Positions 55,926 to 59,008 of a stretch of DNA of 62,293 bases are shown here, piece after piece; position 1 is the stretch's first letter; each line of letters opens with the position of its first letter. Position numbers and translations under genes: made by a program. The DNA lies in IMG/VR virus record IMGVR_UViG_3300025687_000003, positions 1-62,293 of that record. One strand, 5' to 3'. Origin of the DNA: a virus. Below the pieces are notes generated by a model that was not told the DNA's origin, did no database searches, and worked only from the letters and a program-made list of their open reading frames with translations.

Positions 55926-55950
55926 GGAGCCCGGCCTTGCGCCGGGCTCC
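55926..55950 (+). terminator. Perfect hairpin between ssDNA-binding candidate and polymerase
   Basis: GGAGCCCGGC-CTTGC-GCCGGGCTCC begins eight bases after the stop. It probably lowers polymerase expression relative to the preceding gene. No T-run follows. Confidence 0.6.
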
Positions 55951-55966
55951 ACAGCCCGGAGGCACT

Positions 55967-58258
55967 GTGCCCCTTCTGCCCATGCCCCTCATCGTGGGCA
56001 AGGACTACGAGACGTTCCTGATCCGCCCGGACTTGCAAAGGCCTCCCCCGGTCTGCGTGAGCTACGCCGGCTCCGACAAGGAGCTGCACATCCTGAAGCG
56101 CCTGGAGTCCGTCGCCGGCGCCCTCCCCCTCGGCTTTCGAACCGAGCGCTTCGACCGCCTGCCGGTGCCGGGAGGCACCCGGCGCATGAGCCACGGCACG
56201 TCCTGGAAGATCGTCGCCGACCCGCGCACCGCCCACATCTGGATCGACGACCCCGAGTTCCGCGCCAGCGCGGTGTGGGTCGCGCACAACCTGCCGTACG
56301 AGGTCGGCGTCCTCCTCGAAGACGCGGGACGCTGGGACCTGCTGGCCGAGCTGATGGAGCCCGGCAACCTGCGGTGCACCGGCATCCGCGAGATGCTGAT
56401 CGCCATCGCCAACGACTTCCACTACTACGACCCGCGCCTCAAGAGGAAGGGCCACGGCAGCTACAGCCTGGCAGACATCGTCAAGCTGCGCTTCGGCGTC
56501 GACCTGTCCGCCGACAAGAAGAACCCGGACAGCTGGCGCCTGCGCTACTCCGAGTTGCACAACGTCCCGATCCAGGACTACCCGGACGAGGCCTACCACT
56601 ACAGCGCGGACGACAGCGTCTGGGCGCGCGAGGCCGCCATCGACCAGGCCCGCGACACCTACCGCCTGCAGACCAACGCCGGGTCGATGCTGGCGGACCC
56701 CGACAAGGATCCCTTCACCTTCGCCAACGAGTACCTGCAGCTGCTGGCAGACCAGGGCCTGGCGCGCTGCCAAATCGACGCCCCGACCGTCGACCCGGAG
56801 CAGGTCGACCGCTACGAGGACAGCATCCGCGACGACGCCATGCGCTGCATCGAGGCGTCCCGTCGGGGCGGCTGGAGCAAGCACGGCAACTGCCGAACCT
56901 GCGAGGGGTCTGGGGCCATCTGGGAGGAGGGCACGCCCATCGCCGACATGCGTGCCTGCGAGCTGTGCCACGGCACCGGCGAGAACGCCGCCGATCGCCC
57001 GCGGCCGAAGTCCTGGTCGCAGACCATCAAGAAGCGCAAGGTCGCGCGCATCACCGAGGCGTACGAGGGCGCCCCTCCGACCACGGACAGGGGCAACGTC
57101 CGCGAGACCGTCGAGATTTGCGAGGCCAGCGGCGACCCCGTGCTCGTGGAGTGGGCGGCCGGCGCCAAGGCGAAGAAGCAGCTCGAGCGGCAGATCCCCC
57201 TGCTCCGCGAGGGCATCGCCAACGGGGGGCGCGTGGTCTCTCGCTTCCCTGTGCTCGGGGCGCGGACCGGGCGCCCTACGTCGAAGGGCCCGAACATGTA
57301 CAACCCCGACCGCAAGGGCCTCTTCAGGAGCTGCTTCGTGGCGCGGCCGGGCAACGTCATCGGCTCCGTCGACTGGACCACCCTGGAGCTCTACCCCTGG
57401 GCCCAGGTCTGCATGGACTGGTTCGGGTACTCCACGACCGCGGACCGCCTGAACGCCGGCATCGACCTGCACAGCCGCATGGGCGTCAGCGTCCTCGACC
57501 GCTTCTGGGGTCGCTCCGTCACGTACGACCAGTTCATGGAGCTGCGCGCGGCAGGAGACAAGGACGTCAAGAACGCCCGGCAGATGGCCAAGGTCCCGAA
57601 CTTCGGCTGCCCCGGAGGAATGAGCAACCCGGTCACGCTGAAGGAGTACGCCTGGCAGAACTATCGCCTGGAGCTCACCGTCATGCAGTGCTCCGGTCTG
57701 ATCGAGCTGTGGCAGTCCGAGCTCGCCGAGGCGAAGCCCTGGCTCAAGCGCATCGGCCAGATGCAGCGCGCGGAGGGCGGCAACGGCTTCACCGTCCGCC
57801 TGCCGTCCGGCCGGATCCGCGGCGGCTGCCGCTTCACCAGCGGCGCCAACACCCTGTTCCAGGGCCCGGCCAGTGACTTCGCCAAGACCACGCTGTGGGA
57901 GCTGGTGAAGGCCATGCTGTGCGACCCGACGTCGCCCCTGTTCGGGGTCAAGGTGTGGCTCTTCGTCTACGACGAGTTCCTGTTCGAGGGCCCAGCCGAG
58001 ACGGTGGACCAGTGGATCCCGGCGGCCCAGGAGTTGATGCTCAAGTGGGCGAAGTTCTACTTCCCGGACGTGCACAGCTCGCTGACCACCGAGGCCGGCG
58101 TCAGCGTGCGCTGGGACAAAGAGGCCGAGCGTCTGCTCGACGCCAACGGGCGGCTGATCCCCACCGAGTTCCAGGACGTGGAGCGCGTGGCCCAGCTGCC
58201 GAAGGCATGGCTCGACGCCATGCCCGACCACTACCTGGACTACCTGGAGGTCTCGTGA
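55967..58258 (+). CDS. Family A DNA polymerase with zinc-finger-like insertion (763 aa)
   Basis: This is the replicative polymerase. The 3'-5' exonuclease shows DYET (13-16), HNLPYE (107-112, variant of N..FD) and YSADD (212-216). The polymerase domain has motif A VDWTTLELYPWAQ (Asp469, Glu474), motif B RQMAKVPNFG (538-547) and motif C VYDE (667-670, Tyr in place of the usual His). Between the domains, CRTCEGSG (309-316) and CELCHGTG (331-338) form a DnaJ-type double CxxCxGxG. No 5'-3' exonuclease. GTG at 55967 follows GGAGG; an ATG is at 55982. Confidence 0.93.
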   Translation: MPLLPMPLIVGKDYETFLIRPDLQRPPPVCVSYAGSDKELHILKRLESVAGALPLGFRTERFDRLPVPGGTRRMSHGTSWKIVADPRTAHIWIDDPEFRASAVWVAHNLPYEVGVLLEDAGRWDLLAELMEPGNLRCTGIREMLIAIANDFHYYDPRLKRKGHGSYSLADIVKLRFGVDLSADKKNPDSWRLRYSELHNVPIQDYPDEAYHYSADDSVWAREAAIDQARDTYRLQTNAGSMLADPDKDPFTFANEYLQLLADQGLARCQIDAPTVDPEQVDRYEDSIRDDAMRCIEASRRGGWSKHGNCRTCEGSGAIWEEGTPIADMRACELCHGTGENAADRPRPKSWSQTIKKRKVARITEAYEGAPPTTDRGNVRETVEICEASGDPVLVEWAAGAKAKKQLERQIPLLREGIANGGRVVSRFPVLGARTGRPTSKGPNMYNPDRKGLFRSCFVARPGNVIGSVDWTTLELYPWAQVCMDWFGYSTTADRLNAGIDLHSRMGVSVLDRFWGRSVTYDQFMELRAAGDKDVKNARQMAKVPNFGCPGGMSNPVTLKEYAWQNYRLELTVMQCSGLIELWQSELAEAKPWLKRIGQMQRAEGGNGFTVRLPSGRIRGGCRFTSGANTLFQGPASDFAKTTLWELVKAMLCDPTSPLFGVKVWLFVYDEFLFEGPAETVDQWIPAAQELMLKWAKFYFPDVHSSLTTEAGVSVRWDKEAERLLDANGRLIPTEFQDVERVAQLPKAWLDAMPDHYLDYLEVS

Positions 58259-58542
58259 ACAGAAGGAGGCGCGCCTTCGTCATCATTGGCGACGCCATGC
58301 TCCCGACCCGCGTGGTCTGGGTCCAGCCCACGTCGGGATCCTTCGTCCCCGTGCCTTGCGACCCGAGCCCCCAGCCGCCGGCCCTGGCCGAGGCACAGGG
58401 CCGCGTCCTCGCGCTCGAGGACGCGGTCGAGGGCCTGCACAAGAAGCTCAAGCTGGAGGCCGACCGGCGTCTGGAGAACGAGGCGCTGATCGCCACGCTC
58501 CGCCGCCGCAATCGCATCCTGCGCAACGAAGAGAGGGACTGA
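58255..58542 (+). CDS. Coiled-coil protein (95 aa)
   Basis: GTGA overlap with the polymerase. The last 45 residues are a clear heptad helix (LALEDAVEGLHKKLKLEADR, then LENEALIATLRRRNRIL). The start is beta-like. It could be a polymerase accessory or oligomeric regulator. Confidence 0.64.
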   Translation: MNRRRRAFVIIGDAMLPTRVVWVQPTSGSFVPVPCDPSPQPPALAEAQGRVLALEDAVEGLHKKLKLEADRRLENEALIATLRRRNRILRNEERD

Positions 58543-58748
58543 TGCCTGCCAAGACGAAGACAACGCAGCATCGCGCTCGGCTGCGGCACACGTGCTCTCT
58601 GTGCGACTTCCCCATCCGCCTCGGCAGGTTCTACGTCCGCTGGCGGTGGTTCGGGCCAGACGGCCCTGTCACGGTCAAGGCGCACCCCTACTGCGACGAC
58701 AGGGCCCGAGAGAAGGACTGGCACTACGACACCGAGGGGCCGTTCTGA
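58542..58748 (+). CDS. Small zinc-finger-like protein (68 aa)
   Basis: TGATG overlap start. CSLCDFPIRLGRFYVRW and HPYCDD give a CxxC...HxxC pattern, likely binding zinc. Basic N-terminus. No family assigned. Confidence 0.68.
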   Translation: MPAKTKTTQHRARLRHTCSLCDFPIRLGRFYVRWRWFGPDGPVTVKAHPYCDDRAREKDWHYDTEGPF

Positions 58749-59008
58749 TGGGCCTCCGCAAGTCGCTGAAGCAGACCCCGCGCACCGCAGAGGACGACGT
58801 TCGGGAGATCGTGACGAAGCACCCCGGACGCTGTCAGTGCAACAGCCAGTTCGGCGTCGGGTCGACCGTGCGTTGGTCCCCCCAGCGCGGCGTGGTCGGC
58901 TGCGCCAGCTGCGGGGGCGTGACGTGGGAGGACATCGGCGAACGTCCGGACGACCCCTGGGGCCTCTCCGACATGTCCTACTACTCCTTCCACAACGAGT
59001 TCGACTGA
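58748..59008 (+). CDS. Small zinc-ribbon-like protein (86 aa)
   Basis: Cysteines in CQCN and CASCGG suit a zinc ribbon. The N-terminal MGLRKSLKQ echoes the MGLRDTLKN start of the ssDNA-binding candidate at 55390, possibly by chance. TGATG overlaps on both sides. Confidence 0.66.
   Translation: MGLRKSLKQTPRTAEDDVREIVTKHPGRCQCNSQFGVGSTVRWSPQRGVVGCASCGGVTWEDIGERPDDPWGLSDMSYYSFHNEFD

Follow-up and report, generated by a model that had tools for sequence, protein, structure and literature searches.

What is a pair of DnaJ-type CxxCxGxG motifs doing between the exonuclease and polymerase domains of a phage DNA polymerase? The question is raised by a tailed-phage contig of 62,293 nucleotides (the whole stretch analysed, hereafter the window), in which terminase, portal and endolysin genes are matched by general PHROGs, the replication region extends over approximately 44–60 kb, and bases 1–25000 have no DNA similarity to known phages in the phage collection. 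To our knowledge, most phage replicative polymerases of family A need a means to stay on DNA, and outside the T7-like phages these means are largely unknown. If a finger standing at the T7 clamp site alone raised processivity, one such means would be explained.

The gene product (features in Table 1) matches Pfam DNA_pol_A (PF00476) above the curated cut-off (E 1.9e-12; 47.3 bits vs. 34.3), and a Foldseek search of the PDB with its model returned Pol I structures (E 3e-19, TM normalised to target 0.74). Both the Pol I fold and catalytic motifs A, B and C (D464, R533/K537, D664/E665) are present, and the DEDDy exonuclease residues D8, E10, Y207 and D211 are in place, with the Exo II Asp replaced by Glu. 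Unless stated otherwise, polymerase residues are counted from the ATG at 55982. The GTG-based numbering is possibly the true one, because GGAGG stands at 55958–55962, 4 bases upstream of the GTG; the sequence-only reading had put the motifs at residues 309–338, which agrees with a start at this GTG. The interval that separates the polymerase start from the preceding gene contains, at 55926–55949, a perfect 9-bp inverted repeat, GAGCCCGGC-n5-GCCGGGCTC, without a T run, and directly 3' of the polymerase are two small cysteine-rich ORFs (58419–58748 and 58745–59008) without Pfam matches. Motif B of this polymerase clade (57578–57619 in the window) reads NFG[FLC]PGG, and 57 of 58 relatives have Gly at the position of Klenow Tyr766.

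Table 1. Features of the polymerase gene, in window coordinates, with residues counted from the ATG.
Feature	Position	Strand	Details
Family A DNA polymerase gene	55967..58258	+	Length with stop: 763 aa (GTG 55967) or 758 aa (ATG 55982)
3'-5' exonuclease domain, ~residues 1–232	55982..56677	+	Exo I D8/E10, Exo II E107, Exo III Y207/D211
Predicted thumb helix H, residues 272–295	56795..56866	+	AlphaFold2 model
DnaJ-like zinc finger (putative) CRTCEGSG-x14-CELCHGTG, residues 304–333	56891..56980	+	Motif and profile search, L103 alignment
Predicted thumb helix H1, residues 343–360	57008..57061	+	AlphaFold2 model; preceded by basic linker
Predicted helix I, residues 386–413	57137..57220	+	AlphaFold2 model
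Polymerase catalytic core	57371..57976	+	Motif A D464 57371–57373; motif B R533–G546 57578–57619; motif C Y663-D664-E665 57968–57976

Two positions that are invariant in all 58 aligned relatives are substituted in the window: Exo II Asp by Glu107 (56300–56302) and motif C His by Tyr663 (57968–57970). Together with the long branch of this polymerase, they speak for a decaying or chimeric gene in which the finger would be an accident of assembly. The frame of 758–763 codons is, however, intact and rich in GC at third codon positions, as real genes of this contig are, the remaining catalytic residues are all kept, and the finger is common to the relative L103; we therefore regard such an accident as exceedingly improbable.

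The two motifs, CRTCEGSG (56891–56914, residues 304–311) and CELCHGTG (56957–56980, residues 326–333), are in frame within one ORF, and the window has no further CxxCxGxG in any of its six frames. This uniqueness, and the occurrence of the paired-motif DNA pattern once in the window vs. 0 times in 100 shuffles, rule out a chance origin of the pair. The full central domain of DnaJ (PF00684) comprises four CxxCxGxG motifs and two zinc sites. Residues 302–337 gave a weak match to this profile, DnaJ_CXXCXGXG, which remained below the curated cut-off (E 0.008; 16.9 bits vs. 32.7) and spanned profile positions 16–55 of 65, corresponding to the middle pair of motifs. The distance from first Cys to first Cys is 22 residues, which we take to equal that between C161 and C183 of E. 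coli DnaJ, i.e. zinc site II. The polymerase and DnaJ thus share the CxxCxGxG pair and the spacing of zinc site II, but DnaJ has four motifs and a J domain, whereas the polymerase has two motifs and a sub-cut-off score, and Pfam gives for it, besides DNA_pol_A, nothing but the partial match to DnaJ, with no J domain found. What has been inserted corresponds to one half of a DnaJ cysteine-rich domain, with one putative tetracysteine zinc site whose spacing is like that of DnaJ's second site. The double motif within a family A polymerase, as originally read from the letters, was confirmed by motif scan, Pfam and Foldseek, and its assignment to the DnaJ type is supported by the two motifs and the weak profile match. 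Oxidoreductase activity has been reported for the zinc region of DnaJ, which would suit a thumb whose cysteine pairs switch with redox state or form a disulfide hinge; given the reducing bacterial cytoplasm, and conserved glycines that suit zinc knuckles, we consider this highly improbable.

The AlphaFold2 model (overall pLDDT 84, with residues 301–340 low at 44–50) and an alignment of 55 sequences locate the finger within the thumb, with helix H preceding and H1 following it, and thereby bear out the proposal that the insertion lies at the thumb or the exonuclease–polymerase junction. In fingerless relatives, helix H1 leads directly into a 'TPxTxxG' strand, and both landmarks align. Relative to them, the finger stands before H1 in the window and in L103, and after H1 in the other relatives with a thumb finger; in the AlphaFold2 model of one of these, L111 (pLDDT 93), H occupies residues 230–253, H1 residues 265–275, and the finger comes next. 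A two-row MAFFT alignment had indicated a single insertion site common to the window and L001. This reading was dropped once fingerless relatives and helix H1 were added and the models placed H1 on opposite sides of the finger, behind it in the window and ahead of it in L111.

With a net charge of −3, the window finger is the only acidic thumb finger, the eleven others ranging from +2 to +4, and its basic residues are confined to the linker behind it (net +6 over the 25 residues after the finger). The acidity makes it less likely that the finger itself touches DNA and is compatible with docking of a partner. The cysteine-rich region of DnaJ is known to bind clients and DnaK, and in T7 polymerase the site between H and H1 binds host thioredoxin. 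Considering that an acidic finger suits protein contact more than DNA contact, it may be a docking site for the host chaperone (DnaK/DnaJ system), for a thioredoxin-like protein or for a phage replisome protein, without touching DNA; the part of DnaJ in lambda replication was raised by the authors of PMC9038755. We nevertheless judge pure docking unlikely, since, of the two zinc sites of DnaJ, one alone is present, without a J domain, and no partner is identifiable beside the polymerase gene.

With the window polymerase alone as query, no matches were obtained in viral or genome contig collections, and relatives were recovered only by motif patterns and multi-sequence alignment searches (~110 in IMG/VR); the alignment consists of 55 non-redundant members of the polymerase's own clade. 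Most of these carry no finger at all, and a thumb finger is present in 9 of the 55 (the window, L103, L111, L153, L162, L165, L166, L170 and L172). L001 and L183, which are not in this alignment, are also thumb-finger carriers, the latter with a degenerate second motif; L001 belongs with L111 and others to a second subclade, in which the finger follows H1. Manatee Spring phage (MW202816), the one annotated phage that matches the polymerase over its full length (27%), has two CxxCxGxG motifs. It belongs, with L111, L153, L162, L165, L166, L170 and L172, to the same polymerase family as the window and has the double CxxCxGxG thumb finger, but in this group the finger follows H1 and immediately precedes the TPxTxxG strand, and several members have an additional CxxC hairpin placed after motif B and before motif C. 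The nearest relative found, L103 (IMGVR_UViG_3300025108_000091; 34–38% identity), has retained all four cysteines in a finger that likewise stands at the pre-H1 position, and differs in its x10 spacing, a degenerate second motif (CASCRGMP) and a basic finger (+3). Only these two proteins, the window polymerase and L103, use the pre-H1 site; further matches around L103 (L185, L186, L188–L191) contained no additional fingers. The sequence-only reading had named as grounds against itself an insertion common to most related polymerases with known function, or cysteines that are not conserved. Neither was found outright: most relatives have no insertion, and the four cysteines are conserved in the nearest of them.

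Cysteine-rich and other insertions were also seen elsewhere in these polymerases. A DnaJ-like double CxxC (CEVCGGSG...CGPCEGFG) lies inside the exonuclease domain of L163 (4469–6928, polymerase residues 193–236). L166 (5785–8418, on a contig shared with L093) has an extended DnaJ-like thumb insert with three CxxC and CDGTG, and more CxxC pairs elsewhere, while L183 (243–3527, Gammaproteobacteria bin) combines its thumb finger with a motif B that is interrupted by an intein-like insert (AKPC|FHPDTEIL...VVVGQ|CNFG). In L098, L111, L125, L153 and L170 the stretch from motif B to motif C holds a second cysteine hairpin (CG..K....CxxC), in some cases together with CxxCxGxG; the window has none.

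In stricter trees, built with the finger columns excluded, the window pairs with L103 (100/97), L163 joins the two (99/85), and the post-H1 fingers form a separate clade (100/99–100) with one inferred loss within it. A looser, less filtered tree sets the window and L103 apart. Constraining the window and post-H1 groups into one clade was rejected (p 0.0002), but holding both finger groups inside a wider clade gave a borderline result that was not clearly rejected (p 0.05), and the window polymerase sits on a long branch. Because of this, separate acquisition of the finger by the window lineage, the second subclade and the HMO-2011-type phages is, judged from the alignments and trees, likely but short of proof.

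The same distribution bears on whether the finger matters at all. It may be a structural staple that caps a tolerated insertion in a thumb loop, with no special role in holding DNA and with near-neutral gain and loss. That most relatives are fingerless is consistent with this, as are loss of the finger within the post-H1 subclade (L156, L141, L117 and L147), a length varying from x10 to x21 and the use of more than one site, that in the exonuclease domain of L163 among them. A dispensable cap, however, fits poorly with four cysteines conserved between the window and L103 despite 34–38% overall identity, with Cys pairs intact in every finger except the degenerate one of L183, and with retention of the finger by HMO-2011-type phages in thousands of sequences (PMC9038755). 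We thus consider the staple rather unlikely; if it were correct, the finger would be a curiosity of polymerase evolution.

The closest published counterparts are the HMO-2011-type marine phages, whose definition includes a "partial DnaJ domain with two CXXCXGXG" situated between the exonuclease and polymerase domains (PMC9038755, PMC6918029). This hallmark has been followed through seven new isolates, 207 metagenomic genomes and 2433 DNAP sequences, with no function shown (PMC9038755, PMC6918029, PMC8528129). The module is annotated in HMO-2011 gp12, which, like the polymerases of roseophages CRP-1/2/3, shares with the window its nature and its place between the two domains (PMC6918029, PMC9038755). 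Hence, the view that such an insertion is not a standard part of family A polymerases stands insofar as most relatives lack it, but the insertion is not without precedent, being published for HMO-2011-type phages (PMC9038755, PMC6918029). The two fingers differ in position and spacing: the HMO-2011-type finger follows the SPxQ helix (H1) in 31 of 31 cases checked and has x17 spacing, whereas the window finger precedes H1 and has x14; the difference in placement had escaped the sequence-only reading. Membership of the HMO-2011 type also calls for a DNAP homologous to that of HMO-2011 (at least 25% identity over 80%), but HMO-2011 was not among the full-length polymerase matches (tblastn, E 1e-5) and appeared only when a 65-aa finger piece served as query (E 0.1). 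By sequence comparison, the window polymerase belongs to another clade, with that of HMO-2011 falling far outside. What is new here is the finger in a distant polymerase clade, its placement in the window and L103 at another point of the thumb, and the evidence for repeated acquisition.

Since the H–H1 interval is the site of the T7 thioredoxin-binding domain, the finger should, by analogy, either lengthen the thumb across the duplex or serve to bind a partner. The putative zinc site would fold a rigid knob in the thumb between H and H1, and this knob would extend the thumb over newly made duplex or dock a replisome partner. Dissociation of the polymerase would thereby be lowered and processivity raised, which is the job of the T7 domain at the same site. 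As a whole, the best explanation in our assessment, to which we give an even chance, is a zinc knob resembling DnaJ site II that was separately acquired and that makes the enzyme more processive by touching either the product duplex or a partner in the replisome. Counting against it are the low pLDDT (44–50) at residues 301–340, the acidic finger and the fact that most relatives replicate fingerless; the papers found contained no biochemistry on any of these DnaJ-like polymerase fingers. If true, the explanation would supply a testable function for the published but unexplained HMO-2011 DnaJ domain and a compact module for engineered polymerases. A broader proposal, which we offer as doubtful, is that DnaJ-type half fingers are mobile modules put into family A polymerases several times (in the thumb between H and H1, after H1, in the exonuclease and in the fingers) and that at H–H1 they would act as a built-in, partner-free substitute for the T7 thioredoxin clamp.

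The T7 insert differs from the window finger in that it is longer, has no zinc finger and binds host thioredoxin. The likeness lies in the site, both being thumb insertions between helix H and the NPSS helix H1 (T7 site: PMC6486907). The T7 thioredoxin-binding domain and its role as a clamp have been treated in a simulation study (PMC5984650), and when the domain was moved to the corresponding place in Pol I of S. aureus, which the primers locate immediately ahead of the NPSSPKQL helix, processivity increased twofold with thioredoxin present (PMC6486907).
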